Assembly: GCA_021823905.1 (NCBI GenBank)
Contig: JAKALX010000002.1
Coordinates: 1-37,327, forward strand
Reading direction: 5' to 3'
DNA: 37,327 bases
Source of the DNA: Chloroflexota bacterium
Lineage (GTDB): Bacteria; Chloroflexota; Dehalococcoidia; Tepidiformales; Tepidiformaceae
Shown here: positions 9,503-37,197 of the stretch, piece after piece
How positions within the stretch are numbered: the first letter of the stretch is position 1
How the letters are laid out: each line of letters starts with the position of its first letter
Translations under genes and position numbers: made by a program
Notes under the pieces: generated by a model
Seen by the model: the letters and a program-made list of their open reading frames with translations, nothing else
The model's database searches: none
Told to the model about the DNA's origin: nothing

Positions 9503-11766
9503 AGCTTCTCCCTCCGAGGCAGGCCCGCTGCGAACTTCGGGGAGACGATCTCCAGCACCGAGGGGCGCGTTAGGTAGAACTCGTAGGCCAGGGTCCCAAC
9601 CGGCGACGGCACGGCCCGCAGGATGAACGGACTGCCGTCATCGCAGCGTGCGGCAGCCAGGAACGTCGGGTCCGGCACGGAATCTCCCAAACGATCGGAC
9701 TTCTGCCCTGTGATGCGTTCCCCCCCGCTGGCGGCGTCCCCGATGGTTCTGCCCTGGAGGAAGGCCGCGGCGATCTTCATTTCGGACAGCCCCCAGTTCT
9801 CCGACCGCAATCTACCAGCCTGGTCAACGAGGTCCCCCTGGAGTCGCTCGTTGATTCCGTCAGCCGTCTTCTCCGCAGCGCCGCGAGGAGACCCGCGGCC
9901 GTCGCTTTGGGGGCGGTGGTCGGTTCCGTCAACCTCGTCCACCCCCCAGAGCTTGACCTTGCGGCCGTCGTGATCTCGCAGCAGGCTCGCGGTGTCGTAG
10001 GCCCGGACGAGCAGACAGGGCACGGCCGAAGAACTCGAGGCCCCGCTCCGGCGGATGCGGAGCCGCTGTTCGGGGTCATGGAACACCTCGAGAACGACAT
10101 GGAGGGCCTCGCCCGGCGCTCGCCGGCCGTGCTTTGCGGCGTTGCGAATCGCGTTTTCGAGGATCACGTAGAGCGCCTGATAGCCGACGAGGCCGCCGGG
10201 GACCGAACTCTGCACGTCATTGCCCGTCTTCACCGTGGCCTCATCCTTTTCGGGCGTGAAGAGTAGCAGCCGCTGGCAGTCGTACGGCCTGACGAAAGGA
10301 TCCTGGCCCTCTTCGACGTGCCGGCAAGAGAGTGCGCCACGACGGGCCTGCCCTGAGGTCGCCGCGTTGACACAGTGCTCCTTCAATTGCCGCACCCGGG
10401 CCTCGATCCTCTCGTTCGCCGTAGCCCCACCCGCTTGCGCCGCGACAAGCCACAGGTTCTCCGGCACCAAGAAGACGTGAAGCCGGATGTCGTCAAGCCC
10501 CAGAGCGGAGCGCTCGGGCGGTTCACTCTCCGGCGCGCCGGTTGCGGCGCGGAACAGATGGGCCTGCAGGCCTTCCGATCGGCCGATGTAGTCGAGCACT
10601 TCCTCCTGGTGCAGAAACCAGCGCACCAGGTCCTGTAGCAACCACGCCGGCTCCTCCCAGACCGGCCACTGGGTGGACACCTGCCCGAGGAAATCCATCC
10701 GCTGTTGGAGGTATCGTTGCGTGTACCATTTGCCGCCGCGGGAGGATCTCCCGAGTCGAGCAAGCACGTGACTGCCGATGTTGTGAGACATGTTGCGGGA
10801 CATCACGGCCGAGACCGCGGACCGCCACCCGTTCCGGAGCGCCAGCGTCCGAGCGAACGCGGTCGAGATATAGCCGTGGACCCGATCCGCGAAGACGGTC
10901 GTCAAGTCCACCAACTCGGGGAGCAACGGCGACTCCGTTGCCATAACGATGCCGCCCGTCCTGATTGCGATCGGGTTCTGGGGTGAAAGGAAGTAGTAAT
11001 ACTTCCACTGCGTGCTGACTGAGTAGAGATAGATCAGGTAATTGCGAAACATCTGAGGAAACCGGCCATCGGGATACTGCTCTTCACCCTTTGCTTTTAG
11101 ATCCGGTACGGCGGCAAGAAGGGACTCGACATCGGCAACGCCCTGCGAATTTGCCATCTCCATCGCAGTAAAAAGGCCCTCGGGGGTCGTGACACTTTGC
11201 ACCAGTGACTGAATCGTCTCAGATAGCGCCGCTGGAACGTTGATCACAAGCTCGGTGTCATCTTCGGCGTCATCTGTTGGCCCTGATCGTGCGAGTGCCT
11301 GATCCCGGCAGATGATGAGACGGCGCTTCTTGAGGCCGTTGAACACGAGATCCGAGCTGTCGGCCACAAGGGTCCGGTAACGCTCCCTTTCCGCCTCCGC
11401 AGCGCGGTGGAGGGCGGCGAAGGCGTTCCCATTATCGCCGAGCTGGTTGAACGTCAGGAATGAGTAGTCCTGGCGCACCTCATCGAAGAACATCAGGACG
11501 ACCCAGAGGGCCGTCCCTTCCCCGAACAGGACCTGAAGAAGGCCCTCGAACACGGACAGGTGCTCCGAGGATTGTAGCTGGCACGGCCAAGCGTAGTCGT
11601 CGCCGTTCCCGCTAAGTGCAAAAAGGTCGTGCAATCTGCCCTCTTGGCAGCCAGCGCGGAGATCGTCGCCCAACTTCGGCTGCGAAAGATCCCTGCTGAG
11701 TTTGGCCAAGATCCTCATGCCGCCTGGATGGCCCATGGGCGAGACTCCTTGTGCGCAGGATAGCAC
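9499..11766 (-). CDS. atypical histidine kinase-like protein (start may be at 11736 or 11718)
   Basis: H-box-like SRNMSHNIGSHVLARL, N-box VILENAIRNAAKHG, and NWGLSEMKIAAAFLQG as a degenerate G2 box. Confidence 0.75.
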   Translation of the reverse strand: MLSCAQGVSPMGHPGGMRILAKLSRDLSQPKLGDDLRAGCQEGRLHDLFALSGNGDDYAWPCQLQSSEHLSVFEGLLQVLFGEGTALWVVLMFFDEVRQDYSFLTFNQLGDNGNAFAALHRAAEAERERYRTLVADSSDLVFNGLKKRRLIICRDQALARSGPTDDAEDDTELVINVPAALSETIQSLVQSVTTPEGLFTAMEMANSQGVADVESLLAAVPDLKAKGEEQYPDGRFPQMFRNYLIYLYSVSTQWKYYYFLSPQNPIAIRTGGIVMATESPLLPELVDLTTVFADRVHGYISTAFARTLALRNGWRSAVSAVMSRNMSHNIGSHVLARLGRSSRGGKWYTQRYLQQRMDFLGQVSTQWPVWEEPAWLLQDLVRWFLHQEEVLDYIGRSEGLQAHLFRAATGAPESEPPERSALGLDDIRLHVFLVPENLWLVAAQAGGATANERIEARVRQLKEHCVNAATSGQARRGALSCRHVEEGQDPFVRPYDCQRLLLFTPEKDEATVKTGNDVQSSVPGGLVGYQALYVILENAIRNAAKHGRRAPGEALHVVLEVFHDPEQRLRIRRSGASSSSAVPCLLVRAYDTASLLRDHDGRKVKLWGVDEVDGTDHRPQSDGRGSPRGAAEKTADGINERLQGDLVDQAGRLRSENWGLSEMKIAAAFLQGRTIGDAASGGERITGQKSDRLGDSVPDPTFLAAARCDDGSPFILRAVPSPVGTLAYEFYLTRPSVLEIVSPKFAAGLPRREKL

Positions 11767-22081: not shown

Positions 22082-23512
22082 ATGATTCTCAGGTGCCCAC
22101 TGTGTCTCAAACAGGTCACAGACAGCGGCGAGAAACTCGTTCGTTTCTGTTCGCGCCACCCCGGGCAGAGTGTTGAGGTCGAGCTTTCGGGGCCCGACTA
22201 TGGCGCGCTGGCGTGCCCAGAGTGCCAGGATGGAGATGCTGACTCTTTCTTGCATGGTGTGTTCTGCCGCCATGTTGGGTGCGTCGCAAAGAACCCCTAT
22301 TGGAAGAGCACGGAAAGACGGGTCGTCGTGCCTCAGACGGTCAGATTCAGCCTGCTGGGGGGAGCGGGGAACGTCGAGAACGTTGATGTCAGGCACTGGG
22401 AGCTGAGCGTCCTAAGGAGCATTGCGGAATCGCAAGACGACAACCCGATCCTCGCCAGCAGCGGCGAGATGTGGTTCCCGGTCGCTTTGCTGTGGGCGTC
22501 GCGCCGCGAGGCGCCCCAGGGGAAGAAAGCCGCGTTGGTCGAGCTGAGCGGACCCAAGAGCGTCGGCAAGACGGTGCTCGCGTTGATGGCGTTGGACTAC
22601 GAAGGTTATGTCGGCTCACCGAACCAGCGCGACCCCCTCACCCGGGGAGTGCTCACCCGCCTCGCGAACCTCGATCATTTCGTCTTCGAGCCCTCCCGTG
22701 AAGGAGAGACCTCGCCTGACAGGTGGAACGAACTCCTCTACCTCCGATCGCTCATGGAGGTGAACGAACAGATCCCCAACTGGCCCGCTCACACTGCCGT
22801 GTCCATCCCCGGCAACATCAAGGCCGTCTACTTCGGGCCACCGAGGAAGCAACAGGGGGCCAATGGGTTCTCCACTGGGACTTCTGAAACCTTTGTCGAG
22901 CAGTTCCTCAGAGCACTGGCGCAAATTGCCCGTGCCATCGCTGAGATCCTCACCGGGGGGGGCCACCACGACTGGCGGCCCCGAGGGAGCGTCGTGTGCT
23001 TCTACGACACCGCCGGCGAGCAGTCGGAGGACCCCGGCCACCCTGGACTGATGCGCCTGGATGACAAGGTGGATGTGGTCGCCGTTCTCGTCGATGCCCA
23101 GGACTTTACCTTCGTCGGGGGCCCAAGGAACCACCCGAGCACCGTCGCTCGCGCCGTTCAGCGCCTCCGCGGGGTCCGATCACGGGAGGGCCTTCGCACA
23201 TGCGTGGTCATCACCAAGACGGACACGATGTTTGCGGCGCTCGGGGAAAAGGGCACCAGCACGCTGACCAAACTCACAGTGGACCCTTCAGCGCACGAAG
23301 GGGGCGCGCGGGGATGGCTGAAATACCACCTGCGACGGACGCAGAACGATGAGGAGCAGGCTCTTCTCCAGCTTCTCAACCAAGAAGAAGTCGATGACGT
23401 CTTCCTAGTCTGGACCGTGGGCATCGAGCCGATTGCGAAGGTCCCTCACTCGTTCGGCATCGCCCGGTTCGTGGCCTGGTGCCTCGAGCTCGACGTCGAT
23501 GCGGACGCCTGA
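22082..23512 (+). CDS. Zn-ribbon-containing GTPase, resembles DO-GTPase-type conflict GTPases
   Basis: MILRCPLCLKQV...RFCSRHP...CPECQ...FCRHVGC; G1 GPKSVGKT, G3 FYDTAGEQ, G4 VVITKTD. Start chosen by SD and CPLC motif within ORF 21242..23512. Confidence 0.8.
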   Translation: MILRCPLCLKQVTDSGEKLVRFCSRHPGQSVEVELSGPDYGALACPECQDGDADSFLHGVFCRHVGCVAKNPYWKSTERRVVVPQTVRFSLLGGAGNVENVDVRHWELSVLRSIAESQDDNPILASSGEMWFPVALLWASRREAPQGKKAALVELSGPKSVGKTVLALMALDYEGYVGSPNQRDPLTRGVLTRLANLDHFVFEPSREGETSPDRWNELLYLRSLMEVNEQIPNWPAHTAVSIPGNIKAVYFGPPRKQQGANGFSTGTSETFVEQFLRALAQIARAIAEILTGGGHHDWRPRGSVVCFYDTAGEQSEDPGHPGLMRLDDKVDVVAVLVDAQDFTFVGGPRNHPSTVARAVQRLRGVRSREGLRTCVVITKTDTMFAALGEKGTSTLTKLTVDPSAHEGGARGWLKYHLRRTQNDEEQALLQLLNQEEVDDVFLVWTVGIEPIAKVPHSFGIARFVAWCLELDVDADA

Positions 23513-25976
23513 GGTGAAGTCTGCACCTCGCCTTCTGGCTTACGGCGGGACCCAGGATGGGTTTCGCCACCAGTTGGGCGAATGGCCTGACGTGAAGGTT
23601 GGGGCGCTGGGCGATCTCCACGGGCTCGACGGCGACAGACAGGAGTTCGGCTGCGGGATCCTCGGTGGCGTCCCAACCCTGGTCATCCGCGAGCGACAGA
23701 ACCCACAGATGCGGGGAGGCTACGCGTACTCTCTCTTGCTGGATCCCGGAATGGAGACGTGGCAGCGCGTTGGCTGGAACCCGGCGCGCCTGGCCTCTGC
23801 CCTTTTTGGACGCTCGAGTGGAATCGGTCGCGGCCTCCTCGACAAGCCTGAATCGGTATCCCCGGCGAGCCTGGCCGAGTTACTGGCCGACGCGGCCCGG
23901 ATTGCGGTCTCTCACACCGCAGAACCGGTAGAACTGGCGTCGGCTTTTCAAGCGCTCTGGGCCGGGGCATCCTTGGCCTCGGGGAGGCTGCTCGTGGACC
24001 CCAGGAAGATCGGGCTATCTTCGTGCCCATCGATCGAGGATGTGGCGTCGGTCCTCGAGGGGCTGCCGCCATGCCTCCGGATCGGGCGGGGGTGGCTCGT
24101 TGGAGGCGGCGAAGCACATGCCGAGGCGTTCGGCGCTGGGTTTGCGCTGGCCGACGACCTCGAGACCTCGGAGGACACCGAAGTTCTCCTTGCCCACGGC
24201 GAGAGCGTTCTTCACGCGTTACGAATTGTTGCGACCGAGGCGGCTGCCGCTGCCTGGATCGAAGATCAGCTTCATCAGCCCTTCTTGAACTGGCAGGTGC
24301 CACCCGGTAGCTTCTTCGACGACCTCATCCTTCTGGGGCAATTGCTCGGAATGCCTTTCCCCGATGAGGCGATGATGTCAAGGGTTGAGGAGAAGCTCAC
24401 GAGCACAGACCGACTCGGGCAGGCGATCGTCCAGGCCGCGGAGACCAAGCTTCTCTCAAGCAGGACCACGCTGGGCAGGCGAGCCACCCATTTCGTCCTT
24501 GCACGGTGTCTCGAAGGAGGAACCGCCCTCTCCCCGAAACAGGCCGCCATCCTGGATTCCGGCGAACTCGTGGCCGAGTTCACTCACCGGGAGTTGTTTC
24601 CGAACGGAATTCGAAAGTGTATCGATTTGCCCCCTGAAGTTCGAACCGCGGTGTGGCAGCACCTGGCTGAGACCGTGCCGCCGGGACGCTTGCCGGAGGT
24701 CGTTCGGGAAGCCGTGTCCGACCTCTCGGACGGAGGTGCGCGCAGAGACCTGGTGTCGATCCTCCAGGCTGCCATCGAACGGGCGCGAGGGCAGACCCTC
24801 GAGTTCGCCCAGTGGGGCCGGCTTCGTGAGAACACGACGGTTGGCCGCCAGGTGGCCCGCTTCCTCGTCGAGGAAGCGCGACAAGGGGCGAAGGAACGAC
24901 GCAGACCCGAATGGGCGCTCGAGTACTTCAAGTATGCCGAAGATCCGGGCGGTATGCAGGCCGGATTTTTGCCAGACCCCGCCGCGACGGACCTGGTCTC
25001 TACCATCCTCAACCTCCTGGCGGGCCCCTTCAATGAGAACGCTCACAAGTGGCTCGAGGAACTTGCCCGTTCGCCGTTGCGGGACAGGCTGCCTCTGGCG
25101 CTCAAACGGCAACTAGCTACCGCACTCGGTGGGCCGTGGTCTCCATTCGCTCTCCTCGTGGCCCTTTTCGAAGGCCAGACCCCACCCACACGGCAGTTGC
25201 CGGAGTTGTCGGAGGACGAGAGAAAACATCTCATCAGTGAACTCCACGCCCTGGTCTTCGAAGCCAAGCCGGGTGGCCACGCGCCGAGCCTGACCGAGCT
25301 TTACGACTGGCTCCCTGACGTGCCCGAGCCGCTGCGGCGAAAACTGGCGGCACTCGAGCCGAAACCGGAGCACGGCAAGGCGGAGAGTTGGATCCTGGGC
25401 TTGGTCAAATCAGGAGATGCCGAGCGGGCGGTCAGGGAAACAATCCGCGCTCTCGAAGCCATCCCACCCGGTGTGAGACTCGACCAGTTCTCCGAGTCAT
25501 TCCAGCAGCAGGTCGTTCGCGAGTTGCTCTCATGCGGGGGGGAACGAGCCGACGTCCGGTACACGCACATCCTGGCTTCACTCCTCGTGGGATCCCGAAT
25601 GTCGGTCGCCAGCGCCGTGGTTGCAGCAGGGCCAGCGCCGACCCTCGCGAGGCGCCTCGCAGCGGATGGCGGCCTCCTGGAACGGATTCTTGGGTTACTC
25701 ACACGAGACGATCAGCAGACCGTGGTCGAGTCTGTTGCCAGATCTTCGCCGGAGACATTCCGAACCCTCGCGCGCAATGCGCTCTACGCTGTGCAACAGG
25801 GAAGGGCCGAGCCAGATTTGAACTTCACGGAGCGCAGTGTTCTTCATCTGCTCGGTTCTGGTCGCATCGGACTAACGCTCGAGGAACTGGCGACGCGCGT
25901 GTTTGGAGAATTCAACGCGGAGGCCGTCATACGAAACGTCCGGGTACTCTTCCACATTGGCGAGGGTGAGTTATGA
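23499..25976 (+). CDS. GAP1-like GTPase-associated protein (putative)
   Basis: About 825 aa overlapping the GTPase 3' end. N-terminus RLLAYGGTQDGFRHQLGEWPD resembles GAP1-N-type proteins; long alpha-helical remainder. Confidence 0.6.
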   Translation: MRTPEVKSAPRLLAYGGTQDGFRHQLGEWPDVKVGALGDLHGLDGDRQEFGCGILGGVPTLVIRERQNPQMRGGYAYSLLLDPGMETWQRVGWNPARLASALFGRSSGIGRGLLDKPESVSPASLAELLADAARIAVSHTAEPVELASAFQALWAGASLASGRLLVDPRKIGLSSCPSIEDVASVLEGLPPCLRIGRGWLVGGGEAHAEAFGAGFALADDLETSEDTEVLLAHGESVLHALRIVATEAAAAAWIEDQLHQPFLNWQVPPGSFFDDLILLGQLLGMPFPDEAMMSRVEEKLTSTDRLGQAIVQAAETKLLSSRTTLGRRATHFVLARCLEGGTALSPKQAAILDSGELVAEFTHRELFPNGIRKCIDLPPEVRTAVWQHLAETVPPGRLPEVVREAVSDLSDGGARRDLVSILQAAIERARGQTLEFAQWGRLRENTTVGRQVARFLVEEARQGAKERRRPEWALEYFKYAEDPGGMQAGFLPDPAATDLVSTILNLLAGPFNENAHKWLEELARSPLRDRLPLALKRQLATALGGPWSPFALLVALFEGQTPPTRQLPELSEDERKHLISELHALVFEAKPGGHAPSLTELYDWLPDVPEPLRRKLAALEPKPEHGKAESWILGLVKSGDAERAVRETIRALEAIPPGVRLDQFSESFQQQVVRELLSCGGERADVRYTHILASLLVGSRMSVASAVVAAGPAPTLARRLAADGGLLERILGLLTRDDQQTVVESVARSSPETFRTLARNALYAVQQGRAEPDLNFTERSVLHLLGSGRIGLTLEELATRVFGEFNAEAVIRNVRVLFHIGEGEL

Positions 25977-28900
25977 CGATACTCCTGGGTTTCTTGCTGC
26001 CCATCATATTCTTTCTGACTCTGTGGCTGGTTTTTCGGGCGAAAAACGACCCGCACTGGCCGCTCGTCGCCGGGCTCGGAGTAGCCGCCGTTTCCTCGAC
26101 TGCTCTGCTGCTGACCGTCTTCACGTCGGTGCTGTGGACGGCTGGGCCGAACATCGCGTGGATTGGCGCCAGCGCTATCGACCAGGACCACGGATTGGTG
26201 CTCGGTGGGAACCCAGCGACAGCGGTCACGGGGTGGCCCAACAGGGCGTTCTCCCCGCGGGTCGAGATCTCTCCCCTTCCCGCCGGCATGGCGAGCATTG
26301 AGGTGAGCGGTGCAGGGGGTTTCGTCAGGGTCGGCAGCGAGTGGATAAGCGGGACGCTCCTGGTTTCTGGCCTCCCAACCGAAGCTGGCGCCTACTCAGT
26401 CAGACAAGAGCGGGGATGGTTCTGGCATCACATTGATCTGCTCCCCAGTGATGGCGGGAAGCCCCTTCGGTTTAGAGTATCGAAGGCGGGCCGCGACCGC
26501 GTGGTTGCCCTGTCGACACTCGTCCACGCGACAGTCCTGAGGATGCGCGGCACGAGCGAGGAGGAGGCTCAGGGGGCCGAGACGCTCGACCGCTGGGCCA
26601 GCGCAAAGCTCCTTCTCTTCACTCGTGAGGGCACCGTTCGTTTGGTCACGGAAGACAGTACGTGCCGTTCATCCATGCCGGTGCCAACAACGTTCCAGAT
26701 TCGTTGGCGCAACCGCGACCTGCGATGTTCAATCGAACGCACCGCGTCCGGCGCACTCCATGTGCGGTTCCTGCCGCCGTGGCGGCTCGTGTCTCCGATG
26801 CCGCCGAGCGACAAGGGGACGCCCGGGGTCGCCACCCTTGCGCTGGCACGGGAAGCGCGTCCCGGCGACAAGGCTTTTCTGTTGCCCCTGGGCGGCGCCG
26901 TTGAAGATCCCCATCTGGAAGCGGTCCTCGAGGTCGATCGGTCGGGAATACCCAGATTCAGAGCGAACCCTGCGTTGCGACCGGTTCGCGAGCCACAACG
27001 TCCAGCGGCTGAGAGTTTCACTTCACGAGACGTCGCCACCGCTGCCGGCCACGCCGGTCTTGGATCCGCCGTTGACATGCCACTGAAGAAGGTTAGCCTT
27101 CGCATTGCCATTGTTGACGACCACCCACAAGCTGGGCGACTGATCACCTGCCTGGTGCTGGCCCTTGCGCTGCTGGCTTTCGGCTTTCCGCTCGTGTTGT
27201 TGGACCTCAGGCCTCGGGATTCGTGGGCGGTGGCAGGGATTGTCTCGGTTACCTGGTGCTTTCTGCTCCTCCGTCTCCTCCTTGCACTCCGGTACGCCCT
27301 GGAGCCCGGTCGCATCGACCGCCTCGCCGTGTCCGGACTCACGATGGCGCTGATCGGTATCACGATGCTGCCGGGCCTGGTTCTCTTCGTTGCTCTCCTT
27401 CATCGCTCTCAGTATTGGACCTTCAAAGACTATCGAGCGCGGCGGCGCTCAGCACTCATGTGCTTCGGCTATCTCATTGCGCTCTTCCTCGGAGGGCTGA
27501 CAGCTCGCATACTCGCCGCGTCCATGTGGCCAAACGTGCCACCCGAATATCACTTCACTCTCGGTGTGATGGGTTCGGTCGTCCTGGCAGCCAGCTTCTC
27601 CTTCCTCGCTGTCGTGTTGGTTGTCAAGTTTACACGCGCGGCGACCGCCGGGATCGTACCCTCGCCACTAGGTGCATGGTCAAGGCCTTTGGCCGAGTTT
27701 CTCCAGGTCTTCAAGCGCCTAGCCACGAGTCGCGCTCCGCGTTTTTGGTGGACCGTCGGCACGACCCATGAGCAGCAGGTCCAGTCGCTCGTAGGGAAGC
27801 TACCCCCTGAGGGCCGACGGGCCAACTTCTTTTGGGTTTTTGGGCCGCTCCTTGCACTCGAGTTACTCGCACTGGTCGCGGTCTTGATCTCCTCGTATAT
27901 CTTCGCAACGACTGCAATCGAGGAGGTTGTTGCACCGTTCTTCCTATGCTGGGCTCCGGCTGTGATCTGGCTTGGCTCGAGGCTTTGTTTCCTGCCGGGG
28001 GAGACAATTAGGACCTTCCACTACGGCCGACTAGCGGCGGTCTCCTTCCTTGTCGTTGTGCCGCTTTTCGGGTTGCCTCTCGCCATGCGCGATCCGGGCG
28101 GCTTAATCGCGTCTGCAGCGATCTTCATTCCACTAACGCTGCTCCTTGCTCTCGCCAGGCCGCTGCGCCCCGCGGCGTTTGCCCTTGCGAGCCTGATCGT
28201 CGGGGTCGCGCTCGCCGTTGTGGTCCTGGCACACCCAAGACCTCTCCTCAAATTCTTGCCTGGCGAAATGGGACCCCGGACGCTTGCTCTCGAGCAGTGG
28301 CCCCAACTGGAGCGGTCCTTGTTGTTCCACGCCTCGCTGCGCGAAGTCGACCCCTCCGGCACACCAGTTTGGACCCTAAAGTACGCAATCCAGCATGCCT
28401 GGGAGAGCAAGGCGATCGCTCATGAGGGCGGGATCTTCGGCCTTGGATACGGCGAGGCACCTGCTCAACGGTCGCAGGTGCGTCAGGACACCCTTCAATC
28501 CGACAGCGTATTCACCTTTTTCGTGGTTAGCGAATACGGCCTTGTGGGCGGTGCGGCGCTCCTTCTCCTTTCCCTTCTACCACTCGTCATCGTGGTTATT
28601 GGGGCTTGGGAACGCTTCGACATCGGCCACGGTGTGGCAGTGCTCGTTACAGGCGCTTTCTTCCTCGAGGGCGCCTACCATGCGGCGATGAACCTCGGTG
28701 CGCTTCCGATCACCGGGAGAAACTACCCCCTGTTGTCGGTCAATTCTCCGTCGGATCTCGTCCGGTGGGGCCTCCTGTTTGCTCTGGCAGTCCAAGCGCT
28801 TCTCTGGCGCTCCACCGGGGAGGAGGATGGCTACGATGTCGCGGCTGCTTCAATCATCTCCCCCCAGGATCCGCGCGTTGCCTGCACTGATCCTCGCCCG

Positions 28901-31168
28901 GAGAGGGTCGGCGCCTTTGCCCGAGCTTCTCTCGTGCTGCTTGTTCCCGCGCTTACTTGTGCGGTCATCATTATTGCGGTAGGGCTTCGCAACGCGAACG
29001 ACACACTAATGGACAATCCTTTCTCCTGGCAAGGGATACTGGACACGGTCAAGGAACTTGTGGCTGGGGGCCAGCTCGCAGTCGTGGACCAGCAGACCGG
29101 CCGCATTAAACTGGATGAACGGCTAAGCACCGGGGGCAAGAGCCTACTCGAAGAGGAGGTAAATCGGTTCAACGCCCTGCCGGCTAAGGAGCGGCTTGGC
29201 GGCACAAGTGTTGCGAATCAGCTCTTCGCTGGCCGAGCCTCATCGGTACGTTCGCTCGCACAATACGACCACCTCCTCGCCGACCTCCATGAGGCGAGTG
29301 CATCCGAGGTGGGAAGACGTGAACCGCCCCTCTTTGTCATCGAGCGCGAGAACGATACGGAAACAGGCGAGTCGCGTTTGAGGCTTGAGCCGAATGCGGC
29401 GTTCAATAGCACGTTGAGTTTCAAGTCGGGTCGGAACCCTGAGCAAATGCCATTGATCGCCTTTGCCACCAATGACCGCGGCGCGGCGGATCCACCCATT
29501 CGCGGGGCGCTGGTGGGGCCCGCCTGGGTGATGGGCCGGTGGGTCGAGGTTCAAGACCCCGAGGGCCTCGTACCCTGGGCCGAACACCTGGAGACGGCCG
29601 CCTTTGCCGAGTGGGCGCGCTTAGGCCCAAGGCAAGCCGAGTCTCGTTACGGCCACCTCTCCCTTATTAGGCCGTTGCATGTCGCGGCGCAAGACTTTGT
29701 GCGGCGGAAGGGGCGACAGTTGCACGGTCAATTGCTCGCCACAGGGGCGACAGAGAGCGCATTGCCACCGCGTGTTGGCCTGACTGTTCTTGAGATCCCC
29801 AGTGGCCAAGTGCTCGCACTCGGCGGCTGGCCTCGCATGGGCCCAACATCAGCCTGGGTCACGGCACGGGATGGGGAGAACGTGCCCTCGCGCGCGTGGG
29901 TCGAGAACATGGCACCGGGTAAGCTCGCCAGACGGTACGAGGGCGACCGGAATTTCGATTTGCTTCTCATGGGCTCGGCGACGAAGCCGATCTTCGCGGC
30001 GGCCGTGCTTGCGACTCACCCTGGAATCGATGCGCGTTTCTGTGTCCGGGGGCCCAGGAACGATGATGAGCACTCGGTCTTTGGCATCCCGGTCACTCCC
30101 GGTTGGCACGTCGGCTTATCTCAAAGCCTGGCTGGCGGGGAGTGGTGTGATTTTGATTCCTTCCTCGCACGATCCGACAACCGATACGCCGTCGAACTTG
30201 GATTTCTTGGCCTTGCGGCCGGGGAACAGGACCGGCCCGGGTGGATCGCGACCGAACCGGGGATGCGAGTCGGCTCGACTCCCGAGTCCATGGACAAAGG
30301 AGTGTCCTGCTGGCACGCCTATCCGAGTTTTCCACAGAGCTTAGGCTTTGGCTTGCATCAGCCTGGAAGGTTGCGGGCCTTGCAGGATACGCCTCTCGCA
30401 GCGAATCTTCACGACATGTTCGGGGTCGAGGTCGCACAGAAGAAGGGAGTACGCTTTCTCGTCTCTTGCTGGACGGGCAACGAGCGGGATGACCGGTCCC
30501 CGGCGCCGGCAGATCCCGCACACGGCGAGTCGGGCGACGAACCTCGGGAACGAGCAGCGGATACCAACCCGGCCAGCGCCCCTGGCCTTGAGTTCTTCAA
30601 CGTGATCTCACCGGTCGGGGCAAATCTCGAACTCGACACCGTCACGACTCCTCGAGCTTGGGTAAGCGTGCTCCTTGGCGGACGCTCCAACCGTTGGTCG
30701 GCCGTCGAGTTTGGCGCTGCATTTGCGACCTGCATCCTGGGCCGGCCAGTGTTGCCTAGTCTGATCGAGCGCACGACGCCCGTCCTGCCGGCAGCCGACC
30801 GCGTTCAGTTCGTTGAAACAGCCAGGCGTCTTCGGCGTGCCCTCACAGCCGTAGTCAGGGCCAACGGTGGCACGGCACATGGCTTTCTCAGGAACGCCGG
30901 TGGACTTGCCGTCATTGATAGACTCAAGGGCGTAAGCGTCTATGCGAAGACCGGCACACTAGCCGAGGAACGGGGCCACCACCCTTCGACCTCGCGGATC
31001 GTCCTTGCTCTCGTCCGGTGGCAGGACCGGGCACAAACGGTTGCATCTCGCGGCCTCGTCTTTTCTCTCGTGGCCGAGCGCGCCCAAATGGGCATGGCTA
31101 CCACTTGGCTCGGCGAGTTCCTCACCGAGAACGAGCCACGCATCCGCGAGTTTCTGGGTGAGAAGTAG
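25973..31168 (+). CDS. giant multi-TM protein: N-terminal module, SEDS (FtsW/RodA)-like domain, penicillin-binding transpeptidase domain
   Basis: 1731 aa, ATGA overlap with the preceding gene. SEDS signature HEGGIFGLGYGEAPAQRSQVRQDTLQSDSVFTFFVVSEYGLVGG; PBP motifs S1335-A-T-K, S1401-D-N, K1659-T-G. Confidence 0.85.
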   Translation: MTILLGFLLPIIFFLTLWLVFRAKNDPHWPLVAGLGVAAVSSTALLLTVFTSVLWTAGPNIAWIGASAIDQDHGLVLGGNPATAVTGWPNRAFSPRVEISPLPAGMASIEVSGAGGFVRVGSEWISGTLLVSGLPTEAGAYSVRQERGWFWHHIDLLPSDGGKPLRFRVSKAGRDRVVALSTLVHATVLRMRGTSEEEAQGAETLDRWASAKLLLFTREGTVRLVTEDSTCRSSMPVPTTFQIRWRNRDLRCSIERTASGALHVRFLPPWRLVSPMPPSDKGTPGVATLALAREARPGDKAFLLPLGGAVEDPHLEAVLEVDRSGIPRFRANPALRPVREPQRPAAESFTSRDVATAAGHAGLGSAVDMPLKKVSLRIAIVDDHPQAGRLITCLVLALALLAFGFPLVLLDLRPRDSWAVAGIVSVTWCFLLLRLLLALRYALEPGRIDRLAVSGLTMALIGITMLPGLVLFVALLHRSQYWTFKDYRARRRSALMCFGYLIALFLGGLTARILAASMWPNVPPEYHFTLGVMGSVVLAASFSFLAVVLVVKFTRAATAGIVPSPLGAWSRPLAEFLQVFKRLATSRAPRFWWTVGTTHEQQVQSLVGKLPPEGRRANFFWVFGPLLALELLALVAVLISSYIFATTAIEEVVAPFFLCWAPAVIWLGSRLCFLPGETIRTFHYGRLAAVSFLVVVPLFGLPLAMRDPGGLIASAAIFIPLTLLLALARPLRPAAFALASLIVGVALAVVVLAHPRPLLKFLPGEMGPRTLALEQWPQLERSLLFHASLREVDPSGTPVWTLKYAIQHAWESKAIAHEGGIFGLGYGEAPAQRSQVRQDTLQSDSVFTFFVVSEYGLVGGAALLLLSLLPLVIVVIGAWERFDIGHGVAVLVTGAFFLEGAYHAAMNLGALPITGRNYPLLSVNSPSDLVRWGLLFALAVQALLWRSTGEEDGYDVAAASIISPQDPRVACTDPRPERVGAFARASLVLLVPALTCAVIIIAVGLRNANDTLMDNPFSWQGILDTVKELVAGGQLAVVDQQTGRIKLDERLSTGGKSLLEEEVNRFNALPAKERLGGTSVANQLFAGRASSVRSLAQYDHLLADLHEASASEVGRREPPLFVIERENDTETGESRLRLEPNAAFNSTLSFKSGRNPEQMPLIAFATNDRGAADPPIRGALVGPAWVMGRWVEVQDPEGLVPWAEHLETAAFAEWARLGPRQAESRYGHLSLIRPLHVAAQDFVRRKGRQLHGQLLATGATESALPPRVGLTVLEIPSGQVLALGGWPRMGPTSAWVTARDGENVPSRAWVENMAPGKLARRYEGDRNFDLLLMGSATKPIFAAAVLATHPGIDARFCVRGPRNDDEHSVFGIPVTPGWHVGLSQSLAGGEWCDFDSFLARSDNRYAVELGFLGLAAGEQDRPGWIATEPGMRVGSTPESMDKGVSCWHAYPSFPQSLGFGLHQPGRLRALQDTPLAANLHDMFGVEVAQKKGVRFLVSCWTGNERDDRSPAPADPAHGESGDEPRERAADTNPASAPGLEFFNVISPVGANLELDTVTTPRAWVSVLLGGRSNRWSAVEFGAAFATCILGRPVLPSLIERTTPVLPAADRVQFVETARRLRRALTAVVRANGGTAHGFLRNAGGLAVIDRLKGVSVYAKTGTLAEERGHHPSTSRIVLALVRWQDRAQTVASRGLVFSLVAERAQMGMATTWLGEFLTENEPRIREFLGEK

Positions 31169-31244: not shown

Positions 31245-31799
31245 TCATCCTGAAGCCAGGGCTAGGCTCAACCGCTCATGCTCCATACGACATAGGCGTT
31301 TCGTCCGGCACTTGGCGCAGGGCGCGCCTTCCCAAATCTCCTGAACCATCGCCGAGACCCTGTCAATCAGTTGTGCGTCCTTGGTGAAGAGACCGAATTC
31401 GAAATTGCGCTGATTCTTGTCTCTTCGGCCAAGGCCCGCCCCCGTGAGGTTGGCGCTGCCAAGGTAAAGACGCCGACCGTCGATCAGAATCATCTTCATG
31501 TGATTTCTCGGGCAGATCCGCATCTGAAGCCGAGAAACAACGTGTGGCAGCGAGCGCGCCGAGTCGATGAACCCCTTGGAGGGCTTGCCCGCGAATAGGA
31601 GGTAGATGTCAACTCCCCGGTCCAGGAGCGTTTCCGCAAGTTGAAGGAATGGCCCGTAACCACCGGTGGCGAGCTCGACAGTGGTCTGTTTGACCAAAGC
31701 GGTCACAATGAGTAGAGAGCGCTGAGCGGCAGGAATCTCCTCGCGGGTCACCCTTTCGTAGATCTCCTCGCCGGTCAGAAAGTCGAACTCGACCTTCAT
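31245..31799 (-). CDS. phospholipase D-superfamily protein (single HKD) with C-terminal Cys cluster
   Basis: NHMKMILIDGRRLYLGSANLTGAGLG (HxKx4D); CAKCRTKRLC at the C-terminus. Confidence 0.88.
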   Translation of the reverse strand: MKVEFDFLTGEEIYERVTREEIPAAQRSLLIVTALVKQTTVELATGGYGPFLQLAETLLDRGVDIYLLFAGKPSKGFIDSARSLPHVVSRLQMRICPRNHMKMILIDGRRLYLGSANLTGAGLGRRDKNQRNFEFGLFTKDAQLIDRVSAMVQEIWEGAPCAKCRTKRLCRMEHERLSLALASG

Positions 31800-33763
31800 C
31801 GCCCTTCACTCCGGCCAGCCAGGTTGGCTTGGACAGCCCGCACGTCCGAGGCCTCGCCGTCTTGCGGCGTCGTGACCCAGGCCGCCTGCACTCGGGCAAG
31901 GGAGGAGGGTGTCTGCACCAAGCAATCCCCGTTGGTCTTGAGCGACGTGGCATCCGAGCTGCCGATAATCAGGCGGCTGCCAACGTGGCTCTGGGTTCGG
32001 AAAGCGATGCCAGTGACCATATTGGCCTTGATGGCGGTCGAGATAACCTCTGCGGTGGGGTGCTGCGTAGCCAAGACGAAGAACATGTTGAGCGCCCGAG
32101 CCTCCGAGATCAGGCGGATGAGCTTCGGTGAAGCACACCCCGAGAACTCGTCGATGATCGTGATCAGGACAGGGAAGGTTGCGCCAGCATCCCCTGCCAG
32201 GGTCCTCTTCCTCATCTGGAGCTCCTCGAAGAGGTTCTCCACCAAGTTTGCAAAACCTCCAGTCGTTGTGGCGACCTCCTGCCAGAGATGCGGGAGTCCA
32301 CGGTACGCCCCAAACTCGAAGACCTTGAAGTCCGCCAAGGCCAACCTTACGCGTGAGGGGGGATACCGGAACGCCACGCCGAAGACGATCGAGTGTAACA
32401 ACACAGTCTTCCCGCCGCCCGTGCTGCCCCCGACCAGAACGTGGCGCGCCTGATGAACGTCAAGCTCACACGGGTGACCGTCTTGGAAACGGCCAATCAG
32501 GTAGGTTATTGGCTGGTCGGAACCAGCCGTTGTTTCCTGCAACAACGGGACAATCGGAACGAAGCGCCGCTCATCATCGAAGAGAGGAAGTTCGACCCGG
32601 ATGGCATCCTTGATTTCGACCCGGGCTGGTGCGCGCCCGATCTCTACGCCAATGTCGGCCAGGCTGCGGGCAACGTTTCTCACAGTGGCGACTTGACCCT
32701 CTTCCTTCGCGAATTCGAAGCGAAGACTGTTCAAACCTATCTGAGGCTGAGCGCCGAACGGCACCAAGTCGACGCCAGCGATACGGCGTACCACGTCGAT
32801 GATCCGTCTTTGGAGTGAGATGACCTCTCGTGAGATTCTGTCGATCCGCGCGTCGTCAGATCGCGGTTCCGGAAGAATTTCGAGGGGGAGAGGCTCGTCC
32901 ACTGCCGGCGCCGGCAACGGGCGCAAAACCGTCTCAGGATCAGCCGCAGGGACATCCCCTGGAACCGAGTTAATCCACGGGGCCGCCCGAAGACCCGGGT
33001 TCCAAGCCGCCCGAGAGTTGGGGGTCCACGGCTGTGGCCGCTCGTCTGGCCGCCGAGGAGCATAGGTACACCCAAGTTCCGGTCGCTGAGAGAGGACTGC
33101 TCCTCGGTGGCGGACGATCTCCACACCCTTGCGGCCCAATGAAGTGAACCAGAAGAGCCAGCGGGATCGAGCGGCCTTGCGGAGTCCTACTGCCAGTCGG
33201 TGAGGGGAAATGCCAATCAGGAAGAGAACACTCCCCGCGGAGACGATGCTGCCCCCAACTCGACCGAAGAACGGACCTAGAAAGTTCTCGAGGTACCTGA
33301 GAAAGAAGTCGCCAAAGGACCCACCAAGCTGCGGCTGGTGAACGAACGCGCGTTGGACGCAAGTCAGCAGAATTGAAAGGACAGGCACTGCCAGCAGTAC
33401 CCGAAGGGTAAGGCGTGCGCGGACAATGTAATGGAAACGCCCGAGATCCACGATGCCAACCACAATAAGCGCGAGCGGCAGGACATACGCTGCCTTGCCA
33501 AACAGCAAGAGAAGCGGCAAACCGACCAATCTCGCCAAGGAGGACCAAATACCGGAGCCACGCCAGCCGCCAGTTGGGGTTCTCGTGGCGTCCATCGACC
33601 CAAGAAGGAAGAGTAAAACCGCACCGGCAGCAAGGAAGACGAGCCCCATTCTGAGGCTCCACGACACCGAGCGCGGCTCCACCCCCCCGTGACGTCCCCC
33701 GCCGTGTTTCTTGGCCGGTTTCTTCCCCACCCGGTTGCTCCTCTTCTGCAGGACAGCATACAT
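31796..33763 (-). CDS. FtsK/SpoIIIE-like ATPase with N-terminal TM helices (ORF extends to 34531; ATG inferred at 33763)
   Basis: HVLVGGSTGGGKTVLLHSI (Walker A), VLITIIDEFSG (Walker B), FFVLATQHPTAEVIS; hydrophobic N-terminal segments; 4-bp overlap with the PLD gene. Confidence 0.88.
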   Translation of the reverse strand: MYAVLQKRSNRVGKKPAKKHGGGRHGGVEPRSVSWSLRMGLVFLAAGAVLLFLLGSMDATRTPTGGWRGSGIWSSLARLVGLPLLLLFGKAAYVLPLALIVVGIVDLGRFHYIVRARLTLRVLLAVPVLSILLTCVQRAFVHQPQLGGSFGDFFLRYLENFLGPFFGRVGGSIVSAGSVLFLIGISPHRLAVGLRKAARSRWLFWFTSLGRKGVEIVRHRGAVLSQRPELGCTYAPRRPDERPQPWTPNSRAAWNPGLRAAPWINSVPGDVPAADPETVLRPLPAPAVDEPLPLEILPEPRSDDARIDRISREVISLQRRIIDVVRRIAGVDLVPFGAQPQIGLNSLRFEFAKEEGQVATVRNVARSLADIGVEIGRAPARVEIKDAIRVELPLFDDERRFVPIVPLLQETTAGSDQPITYLIGRFQDGHPCELDVHQARHVLVGGSTGGGKTVLLHSIVFGVAFRYPPSRVRLALADFKVFEFGAYRGLPHLWQEVATTTGGFANLVENLFEELQMRKRTLAGDAGATFPVLITIIDEFSGCASPKLIRLISEARALNMFFVLATQHPTAEVISTAIKANMVTGIAFRTQSHVGSRLIIGSSDATSLKTNGDCLVQTPSSLARVQAAWVTTPQDGEASDVRAVQANLAGRSEGR

Positions 33764-34103
33764 CGTGCCGGGCCGTTCCTGATCAAAGGCTGGCTCAGGT
33801 CGCCTCGCTGCCCGGCATGAAACGTCAAAACGTCGGACAGAGTAGGCGTGCCGTCCAACCTGCCGATTCCTCGACACCGCTTCCACCAAATCCACCAAAC
33901 AAGTGCTTGCACTATGGAATCGGAATACGCTCAAGGAGATAACGCCAGTGTCGTTGGCCCTGAGGACACTCAGTTGGCGGCTCCCCAGGCTAAGAAACCA
34001 ACCAGGTGCCACCTTGCCCCTCGCATGCACCACTGATATCATCCACTCAGTAAAGAATCTTCCTGCCATCTGTCGTTGTGGAGCACAACACAGGGGGGTT
34101 GCC

Positions 34104-34811
34104 ATGACAAACCAGCAAGCCAAGGTTAAAGGCGTTGCCGATATCGTGTTCCTCATGGATGCAACGGGGAGCATGCAGAGGTGCATCGACGGCCTCAAGC
34201 GCAACGTCGAATCGTTCATCGACTTCCTGACGACCGGCGCCGGCAATACGGTAAGTCCCGTCAAGGATTGGCGGGCGCGGGTCGTGGGCTTCCGCGATGT
34301 TGAGACCGACGGCGCCAAATGGTTCGTCGACAACCCGTTTGTCCGGGATGCCATCGCCCTCAAGGCCCAACTCGCGGCGCTTACGGCGGAGGGCGGTGGT
34401 GATGAGCCCGAGTCGCTGCTCGACGCCATCTTCATGGTCTCGAAGGCCGGCCAGACCGATAAGGGCGCGCCCGAGGACCCTGCACGCTGGCGGTACCGAT
34501 CGGCCGCGGCGCGGGTCGTCGTCGTGTTCACGGATGCCAGCTACAAACCGGTAATGGGCATTCCCGAGGCGCGCGGGGGCACGATCGACGACGTCAGGAA
34601 CGCCGTGCAGGACAACCGGATCATCCTCAGCGTCTTCGCGCCCGACCGGCCGTGCTTCAACGACCTATCGGCTTTGGACAAGGCCGAGTACGTTCCGATA
34701 CCGGCCGACTCGGGGCTCGAAGCGTTCACCGCGGACCAGGCAAACTTCCGTGAGACGTTGCGCCAACTTGCCGCCAGCGTCTCGGCCTCTTCCGAGACGG
34801 TGGCGTTGTGA
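34104..34811 (+). CDS. von Willebrand factor A domain protein
   Basis: ADIVFLMDATGSMQRCIDGLKRNV (MIDAS DxTxS), RVVVVFTDASYKPV. Confidence 0.88.
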   Translation: MTNQQAKVKGVADIVFLMDATGSMQRCIDGLKRNVESFIDFLTTGAGNTVSPVKDWRARVVGFRDVETDGAKWFVDNPFVRDAIALKAQLAALTAEGGGDEPESLLDAIFMVSKAGQTDKGAPEDPARWRYRSAAARVVVVFTDASYKPVMGIPEARGGTIDDVRNAVQDNRIILSVFAPDRPCFNDLSALDKAEYVPIPADSGLEAFTADQANFRETLRQLAASVSASSETVAL

Positions 34812-34820
34812 GGGGGACAG

Positions 34821-35549
34821 ATGACGACTCGCGGCGTTGCGGACATTGTGTTCTGCCTTGACGCGTCGGGTTCCATGAGCCCCTGTTTCGAGGGCGTGCG
34901 GAACCACGTTGGGGATTTCATCGAGGGGCTGAACTCGGGCGGTCAGGCGCACTTGGACGTGCGCTTCGATCTTGCGGCCCACCGGTGCGTCGCCGAGGGC
35001 GCGGCGCCGGTACTGGAGATGGAGTCCGTCCACAACCGGTCACTCCTGGCTGCGCTCTATGGCTCCCCCTCCCAGGCTACGCGATTCTTCAGTCATGATG
35101 TCGAGGAGGTTCGGCGACGCCTCACGGAGATAAAGACCGAAGGCGACGAGGCATCTCTCGTTGCGCTCGACTGCGTGCTCGACTTCCCATGGCGCCAGGC
35201 TGCGGCATGCCATCGCGTCGTGATTCTAATGACCGACGAGGCGTTTGAAACCGGCGCCTGGCAAGCGCCCCAGGTCGCGCGCCTCGGAGACCTGGTCCGC
35301 AAGATCCAGGATCTAAAGGTGATGTTGTATCTTGTAACGCCCGAGTCGGAGGTCTTTTCCCGCCTGTCCGAGGTCGACAAGTGTGAGCACATTGTGGTCG
35401 ATGCGAGCGGGGACGGCCTCAAGAGCGTGGACTTTGCCGAGGTGCTCGGCTTTGTCGGGAAGTCCGTTTCAACGTCCACACTCCAAGCGCCGCAACCCGC
35501 TGCGGCCACGCGGGCGCTCTACGGTCAGGCCACGTGGAGGACGTCCTGA
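34821..35549 (+). CDS. von Willebrand factor A domain protein
   Basis: ADIVFCLDASGSMSPCFEGVRNHV (MIDAS DxSxS), RVVILMTDEAFETG. Confidence 0.88.
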   Translation: MTTRGVADIVFCLDASGSMSPCFEGVRNHVGDFIEGLNSGGQAHLDVRFDLAAHRCVAEGAAPVLEMESVHNRSLLAALYGSPSQATRFFSHDVEEVRRRLTEIKTEGDEASLVALDCVLDFPWRQAAACHRVVILMTDEAFETGAWQAPQVARLGDLVRKIQDLKVMLYLVTPESEVFSRLSEVDKCEHIVVDASGDGLKSVDFAEVLGFVGKSVSTSTLQAPQPAAATRALYGQATWRTS

Positions 35550-35606
35550 TGAGGGGACCGTGTGGGCACCTGACACGAACTTCGGTGCGGCTGTGAGAGG
35601 GCGCGG

Positions 35607-36803
35607 ATGGCCAGAATCCTGAAGCCGGGCGAGACCGTTGCCGGATATACGATCGTCCGACACCTTGGCAGCGGAGGGTTCGCCATCGCGTATGAGGCGA
35701 GAGACAGCCACGGCGAGAAAGTGTTCTTCAAGCAGTACAAGTCCCCGTCACCCGCCGTGCCCTGGTACCCTGGCTACGCTCGCTACCAGGAGGAGATCAA
35801 GCGCCGCATCGAAACTACCAATGCCTCGCGCTTCTGCTACAAGTTCATCGAGTTCTTCGAGGCCATTGCGGGCAGCACGTGTTACTTCCAGGTTTTTGAG
35901 TTCGTGGAGCACGGCAATGACCTCAGTGAGATTCTGACGCGGGCAGCCGCAGGCTCACGCCTGCCCTGGGACCAGCGAATGATCTTGGCGAGAGTCATGG
36001 TGGCCGGGATCGCGTCCCTCCACGATGCAAAGATTGTGCACTGCGACCTGAAGCCGGGTAACATCGAGCTTCTCGCGGACCACACTATTGCGGCGAAGTA
36101 CCGCCTCAAGCTCGTGGACTTCGACTGGTCGATCCTAGCTGATCGCCGAGCGCCCTGGCATGGGTTCCAGGGGTACATGACCTCGCCTGGCTATAGCTCC
36201 CCGGAGCACCTCCGCGCACAGCTACCGGTCCCCGCTTCGGATGTCTTCACGTGCGGTTTGATGCTACACATGCTCCTCGCCGGCGCGCACCCGTACGACT
36301 TCGACAGTGACACGGAGTACGGGCGCGCGGTGCTCGGTTACGCAGCCCCATTGCCGGCGTTTGCGGACTTCCCGGGTTCCCCGGCGGAGGCCACCGAACT
36401 CGGTCAGGCCCTTAGGCGTTGCCTGGACCCCCTCCCGAAAGAACGGCCGACTGCAGTCGAACTGTTGGCCGTTTTGCGCGGCGGCCGGGCCGGTGGCGGG
36501 GGTTGGCTGCGGCTGGTTGGGCCGTCGGGCGAGACGGTTACCGTCCGGGTCCCGACTGATGTTGGGAAGACCGTCCTCGCCAAGTTCGGAACCGATGCCG
36601 CTTGCCTTGACGCAGTCCAGTTCTCCCTCGAGCGTTCCGGCGGCGATTGGTACGTCGTTCCGCGCGTCGGTACGACGAACGAGACACTCCTCAATGGGAA
36701 GAAGCTGACAACACGCTCGGTGGTGCGGCAGGGCGACACGCTCGCCGTCGGCCGCCAGACCAGGGGCGTGAGCAGGTTGCCGATGAAGGTGGAGCTGGGC
36801 TGA
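35607..36803 (+). CDS. Ser/Thr protein kinase with C-terminal FHA-like domain
   Basis: YTIVRHLGSGGFAIAYEA, IVHCDLKPGNIELL, KLVDFDWS, SPGYSSPEHL; C-terminal TNETLLNGKKLTTRSVVRQGDTLAVG is FHA-like. Confidence 0.9.
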   Translation: MARILKPGETVAGYTIVRHLGSGGFAIAYEARDSHGEKVFFKQYKSPSPAVPWYPGYARYQEEIKRRIETTNASRFCYKFIEFFEAIAGSTCYFQVFEFVEHGNDLSEILTRAAAGSRLPWDQRMILARVMVAGIASLHDAKIVHCDLKPGNIELLADHTIAAKYRLKLVDFDWSILADRRAPWHGFQGYMTSPGYSSPEHLRAQLPVPASDVFTCGLMLHMLLAGAHPYDFDSDTEYGRAVLGYAAPLPAFADFPGSPAEATELGQALRRCLDPLPKERPTAVELLAVLRGGRAGGGGWLRLVGPSGETVTVRVPTDVGKTVLAKFGTDAACLDAVQFSLERSGGDWYVVPRVGTTNETLLNGKKLTTRSVVRQGDTLAVGRQTRGVSRLPMKVELG

Positions 36804-36810
36804 CGGTACG

Positions 36811-37197
36811 ATGAACTGGAAATGCCCCCAGTGTGGACTCGAGGTCGCGGAAGGTCGCCACCGATGCGATGGGTGCGGCGAGATAAGCTTCGGACGGGTC
36901 CGAATTCGCAGCCTCGAAACAGGCTCCGAGATCACTTTGGGCATCGACACCGAGATCACCCGGCATCTACTCGCCGGTTTTGCTGGCGGGGATGCTGCGT
37001 TTGCGTCTCCCATACAGTTTATCCTCATCAGGAGCATCGCCCATGAGCGGTGGGCGGTCAGCCACTCGACGAAGGCCACGAACCAAACGTACCTCGACGG
37101 GCACCCTCTTCCGACGGATCCTGTCCCGTTGAACGGCGGAGAGGTCATCTCGGTCGGTCCGGAGCGGCTCAGACTTCGAGTCGAGATCGTGGTTTAG
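36811..37197 (+). CDS. Zn-ribbon plus FHA-like protein
   Basis: MNWKCPQCGLEVAEGRHRCDGCG, then TKATNQTYLDGHPLPTDPVPLNGGEVISVGPERLRLRVEI. Confidence 0.75.
   Translation: MNWKCPQCGLEVAEGRHRCDGCGEISFGRVRIRSLETGSEITLGIDTEITRHLLAGFAGGDAAFASPIQFILIRSIAHERWAVSHSTKATNQTYLDGHPLPTDPVPLNGGEVISVGPERLRLRVEIVV

Follow-up and report, generated by a model that had tools for sequence, protein, structure and literature searches.

Could a bacterium place the synthesis of its wall under the command of a GTPase encoded in the same operon? This question is raised by three overlapping open reading frames (ORF1–ORF3) at positions 22082–31168 of the window, a stretch of 37,327 nucleotides of contig JAKALX010000002.1 (assembly GCA_021823905.1, binned as a Chloroflexota bacterium). 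By its sequence, ORF1 (22082..23512, +) encodes a double zinc-ribbon P-loop GTPase of 476 aa, ORF2 (23499..25976, +) a predicted soluble helix-rich partner of 825 aa to which no family was assigned, and ORF3 (25973..31168, +) a polytopic protein of 1731 aa which reads as a natural fusion of a SEDS protein with a penicillin-binding protein (PBP), its transpeptidase half being probable. The best-supported reading is a co-translated accessory module of three genes, in which ORF1 and ORF2 would run a signal-gated accessory wall synthase; for this reading as a whole we estimate a probability of about 0.5. ORF1 starts with the ATG at 22082, just downstream of GGAGGAGAC, a good ribosome-binding site. 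The ATG of ORF2 at 23499 falls within ORF1, resulting in an overlap of 14 nt, and ORF2 and ORF3 are joined by an ATGA overlap with the start of ORF3 at 25973. The translational coupling proposed by a previous inspection of this DNA (the sequence-only reading) is borne out by these overlaps and by their repetition in a second genome.

This second genome, a Bryobacterales metagenome-assembled genome (MAG), carries the complete three-gene set, in unchanged order, on contig JANXQZ010000294.1 (L092). The locus was detected by scanning genome contigs with a search directed at the GTPase (G) motifs, whose query alignment consisted of ORF1 and artificially mutated copies introduced solely to direct the pattern choice onto these motifs; the match was verified with unmodified ORF1 (tblastn). 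Identities amount to 28–32% for ORF1 (E 9e-38), 28% for ORF2 (E 5e-50) and 32–44% for ORF3 (E 4e-161), and the gene junctions likewise overlap (TAATG and GTGA). The contig terminates within the SxxK motif of the ORF3 homologue, and most of the lost C-terminus is found on another contig of that genome (L094; 43% identity to ORF3 residues 1418–1730). Because all three homologues, their order and the overlapping junctions recur, the three proteins constitute a conserved unit and, being encoded in operons of identical order and overlaps, probably work together. In the Bryobacterales MAG the beginning of the GTPase gene is overlapped by a patatin-like phospholipase gene (L092:1413-2162), which has no counterpart upstream of the window copy.

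As judged from these comparisons, the three-gene unit is real, conserved and rare. Direct search of 300 genomes of the window's phylum revealed no relative of ORF1, and 399 genomes of this phylum contained no relative of ORF3 beyond ordinary FtsW/RodA; ORF3 was absent from all 60 relatives of the window genome, the unit from all 36 other members of the window's family that were searched. A first scan of genome contigs with ORF3 as query gave no match. ORF2 profiles detected the unit in one of 297 genomes of the phylum and one of 200 genomes of the order of the Bryobacterales MAG, in both cases the MAG itself. The genome samples drawn for the two phyla share no members, which suggests a different phylum for each of the two bins. 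Sequence searches for relatives in plasmids, viral contigs and the PDB gave nothing meaningful. A viral-contig match to ORF3 (L097) was discarded as short and opposite in strand to a long phage ORF.

ORF1 is a GTPase according to its motifs. The Walker A/G1 motif GPKSVGKT (22550..22573, +; residues 157–164; GAKNAGKT in L092) is followed by the G3 motif FYDTAGE (23000..23020, +; residues 307–313, with FYDTAGEQ at 307–314) and the G4 motif TKTD (23213..23224, +; residues 378–381, with VITKTD at 376–381); GPKSVGKT, DTAGEQ and TKTD had all been correctly located beforehand. Two zinc ribbons are predicted at the N-terminus of this plus-strand gene (Cys5/Cys8/Cys23/His26 and Cys45..Cys67), and the L092 homologue keeps most of the zinc ligands, the P-loop, DTAGE and TKxD. 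G3 includes the Walker B glutamate reported for DO-GTPases (PMC7159879), and these DO-GTPase features, DxxGE (as DTAGE) and zinc-ligand Cys/His residues, are present in both copies. Neither ORF1 nor its homologue matches a Pfam model over cut-off in hmmscan, the DO-GTPase models included, and PF19993 at E ≤ 1 is uninformative as it gives matches in every genome. A two-sequence ORF1 profile scored 77–81% in hhalign against copy-A DO-GTPases taken from real GAP1-N1 operons (L081–L091) and 22–27% against DO-GTPase2, compared with 0.2% for the reversed control and 0.8% for FtsY; in single-sequence tests the separation was weak, with overlapping ranges for DO-GTPases (1–19%) and Era/Der/ObgE (1–4%). 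Thus, of the proposed zinc-ribbon GTPase of DO-type, the ribbons and GTPase motifs were recovered, the Pfam match was not, and the profile–profile comparison is suggestive of a DO-GTPase-like protein.

ORF2 is predicted to be soluble except for one borderline hydrophobic stretch and to be rich in helices, in line with the helical partner previously proposed. Residues 11–460 are conserved in L092, including the motifs RLLAYGGT, QRGGYxxSxLLDPG and RGWLVGGG. The window protein is about 225 aa longer than its homologue, and its end shows, by eye, a possible winged-helix-like stretch. Library searches yielded no family over cut-off. A GAP1-like identity, as claimed by the sequence-only reading, is tempting by eye, since RPG..WTH compares with RGGYAYS and the spacing is similar, and was discarded as unsupported: ORF2 matches no GAP1 Pfam model, its hhalign values with GAP1-N1 and GAP1-N2 profiles built here (0.1–0.2%) equal those of the reversed sequence, and its GAP1 hidden Markov model (HMM) scores fall inside the shuffle distribution. 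A GAP1-N1 protein compared with the PDB had no detectable relative there. ORF2 resembles GAP1 in position and in a few motifs, but its assignment to the family is not supported by these profile comparisons.

The SEDS homology of ORF3 is solid at the sequence level. The protein contains about 16 predicted transmembrane helices (by hydropathy, the count being partly by eye). A transmembrane hairpin (residues 3–52) and a predicted external domain (about residues 56–385; together 25979..27127, +), whose beta-rich character derives solely from a low-confidence model, form an N-terminal region without known Pfam family. Hydropathy places about 13 more helices past this domain, a lone transmembrane segment (987–1005) ahead of the C-terminal domain, the N-terminal and transpeptidase-like domains outside and the basic loops inside. 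The polytopic region with the SEDS core, delineated by hydropathy and hhalign, spans residues 390–945 (27140..28807, +) and includes a Pfam FTSW_RODA_SPOVE (PF01098) match at residues 809–923 (28397..28741, +; 31.2 bits vs cut-off 26.4). A two-sequence profile of residues 380–985 gave 96% (E 3e-9, about residues 675–927) with ten housekeeping FtsW/RodA proteins in hhalign, compared with 0.3% for the reversed sequence. Asp844 (28502..28504, +), conserved in L092, aligns with the catalytic Asp of the TD motif in extracellular loop 4 (ECL4) of housekeeping SEDS proteins, which is required in E. coli FtsW (D297; PMC8765783) and in RodA (D262; PMC6207328). An AlphaFold model of residues 1–1000 reached a predicted local distance difference test score (pLDDT) of 37.

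The C-terminal domain of ORF3 (about residues 1265–1731; 29765..31165, +; 43–44% identity in L092/L094) is a probable transpeptidase-like domain. It contains the SxxK motif SATK (29975..29986, +; residues 1335–1338; SASK in L092), the SxN motif SDN (30173..30181, +; residues 1401–1403) and KTGT (30947..30958, +; residues 1659–1662; conserved in L094). Such an ordered SxxK–SxN–KTG triad with loose spacing arose in only 2 of 20,000 shuffles of residues 1180–1731, and the strand pattern RVGLTVLEIPSGQVLALGGWP ahead of the triad looks PBP-typical by eye. In hhalign the domain scored 1.5% with transpeptidases. Of the earlier claim of a 1731-aa SEDS-PBP fusion the SEDS half is confirmed by Pfam, hhalign and Asp844, and the transpeptidase half is made probable by the motif triad, with no profile match over cut-off.

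The giant protein had been expected not to be a dcw/mreB housekeeping component, and this held. The host bin holds three ordinary FtsW/RodA proteins on other contigs (327.8, 304.5 and 244.9 bits; the ORF3 match has 33.5 bits), so ORF3 is an extra SEDS protein, and its sole full-length relative lies within a matching operon. A housekeeping function was rejected on these grounds, conditional on the binning. Contig and bin may be mismatched: the GC content of the window is 62–64% vs 66.8% for the three other bin contigs compared, the tetranucleotide correlation is lower (0.74–0.84), and the window's family likewise lacks the tyrosine decarboxylase encoded nearby. Up to three or four FtsW/RodA matches occur in the window's family, whereas several families of the same class have none, a pattern consistent with wall loss in part of the class.

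Convergent with the operon lies a PLD-like nuclease/phospholipase gene with weak similarity to DrmC, overlapping a gene for an FtsK/SspH/EccC-like ATPase (31245-33700, −). Further downstream (33903-37197, +) two vWA genes, a Ser/Thr kinase–FHA gene (with MAD6/PD-T4-6-like kinase matches) and a zinc-ribbon–FHA gene reach the contig end. By analogy these genes are reminiscent of GAP1-N2 neighbourhoods with their kinase/vWA theme, and they could share a system with the operon; the L092 contig breaks off short of a comparable region. On the other side, four consecutive large ORFs (684, 577, 535 and 755 aa; 4243-11766, −) match neither Pfam nor PADLOC and stand beside a sigma-54 response regulator with RtcR/PspF-type similarity (2344-3873). 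The operon itself matches neither the PADLOC models nor the NCBIfam defence models.

Consistent with these data we propose the following scenario. ORF1 would switch in the cytosol between its GDP and GTP states, and ORF2, analogous to GAP1 by position, would act as its cytosolic partner, either as a regulator or as an adaptor. ORF3 would be a single-chain SEDS-PBP enzyme. Within the membrane, lipid II would be bound and perhaps polymerised by the SEDS half; outside, the C-terminal domain would cross-link or trim peptide stems, and the N-terminal domain would sense the wall or anchor the protein to it. Via ORF2, the GTPase state would reach those loops of ORF3 that face the cytosol and turn the enzyme on, so that a signal would be required for new wall material to be produced or for lipid II to be diverted; the outcome might be repair, development or self-directed damage. 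Engineered SEDS–class B PBP (bPBP) fusions of the same order as ORF3 are active synthases (PMC6207328).

Several findings weigh against this scenario. Only two copies are known, so that the coupling of the three genes depends on a single comparison, and the physical link of ORF1 and ORF2 to ORF3 is inferred rather than directly observed. The Pfam Transpeptidase model (PF00905) stays below threshold on ORF3 (12.2 bits vs cut-off 22.1, E 0.1), and AlphaFold provided no usable model of residues 980–1731 (pLDDT 33). Moreover, the ECL5 sequence SYGGS reads SVNSP in ORF3 and AVASF in L092. Tyr/Gly residues of ECL5 are essential for FtsW activity, a feature of activity rather than of family membership (PMC8765783), and since YGG is lost in both copies, the polymerisation capability of ORF3 may have been lost as well.

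Loss of this motif, together with the strong divergence from working SEDS proteins and PBPs and the large external N-terminal domain, would also suit a catalytically dead ORF3 acting as a sensor: once lipid II, muropeptides or beta-lactams were bound on the outside, it would signal to the GTPase within, reversing the direction of control. We regard this as unlikely, as the catalytic Asp, SxxK and KTGT are conserved despite an overall identity of 28–44% and SDN is present. A chimeric operon or a giant ORF created by a fusion error is hardly conceivable: the MAG to which the window is assigned is fragmented and the composition of the contig is unlike that of other bin contigs, but an independent genome carries collinear homologues across the SEDS-PBP junction, by which an artefact of the operon, host assignment apart, is refuted.

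Two further alternatives are sub-versions of the signal-gated wall synthase and differ in its purpose. A synthase for a cyst, spore-like or envelope-repair wall, serving development or stress without a role in conflict, would account for the retained transpeptidase triad and SEDS Asp, for the SEDS-then-PBP order of active fusions and for a third component identical in kind in both copies. This proposal is a serious possibility, although we lean somewhat against it, the occurrence being rare and patchy instead of lineage-wide (see the counts in the window's family and in the MAG's order). The patchy occurrence in two distant bins would in turn fit an anti-phage conflict system, where ORF1 and ORF2 sense infection and the effector ORF3 depletes lipid II or cross-links without control, leading to growth arrest or lysis; a role of this kind, with infection-triggered dormancy or lysis as examples, had been suggested by the sequence-only reading. 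ORF1 is nearest to the DO-GTPases of predicted conflict systems, some of which include components that reside in the membrane or bind peptidoglycan and employ inactive versions of enzymes as effectors (PMC7159879), and vWA/kinase/FHA, PLD and FtsK-like genes are close by. Nevertheless, such a role appears unlikely in view of the negative defence-model searches, of a surrounding where no phage or defence island is proven and the neighbours' membership is not established, and of a third component shared by the two copies, whereas the effectors of GTPase-centric systems are hypervariable and swapped. Doubtful, too, is the wider notion that bacteria exchange, as a cassette of three genes, a new class of single-chain peptidoglycan synthase or lipid II trap under the control of a GTPase, possibly for defence with wall synthesis as effector. 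If the conflict interpretation were true, cell-wall synthesis would join the known effector activities.

In actinobacterial STPK-FHA-PP2C-RodA-PbpA clusters a wall synthase is encoded near a kinase–FHA gene. The window shares this proximity, its kinase–FHA gene being located about 4.4 kb downstream of the wall synthase-like ORF3; unlike in those clusters, however, it lies outside the operon and joint conservation is not established. A parallel in gene order is provided by the GTPase-centric DO-GTPase/GAP1 systems of Kaur, Burroughs, Iyer and Aravind (2020), which include membrane and wall-binding parts (PMC7159879). Common to both are a zinc-ribbon DxxGE GTPase directly before a large soluble partner gene and membrane/wall components. 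In contrast to these systems, the operon has a single GTPase, which lacks a DO-GTPase Pfam match, and no match to GAP1-N1/N2/M/C, GASH or FNIII; neither a GASH or FNIII component nor variable effectors were found in the operon or L092, the third component being common to both. Conversely, a SEDS-PBP component does not figure in Kaur et al., where FtsW and transpeptidase have 0 occurrences (PMC7159879). The literature searched, with subscription journals mostly not covered, yielded no description of a natural SEDS-PBP fusion, nor of a GTPase paired with a wall synthase in this way.

Control of wall synthases usually lies with scaffold proteins belonging to the Rod system and the divisome, and we know of no characterised wall synthase under a dedicated GTPase of the kind of ORF1. 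This combination of a GTPase and a natural SEDS-PBP fusion, rare and conserved, appears to be new. With it, cells might turn on wall synthesis, or wall damage, in response to a signal, and the fusion would be a ready single-chain system in which to study the coupling of polymerisation to cross-linking. With RodA-PBP2 and FtsW-FtsI, ORF3 shares the SEDS homology including the catalytic Asp, the transpeptidase triad and the bPBP-type single transmembrane segment before the external domain, and the order of its halves matches that of engineered RodA-PBP2 fusions (PMC6207328). It differs from these pairs as one chain of 1731 aa with extra transmembrane helices, an external N-terminal domain, an ECL5 devoid of YGG and a co-encoded GTPase.

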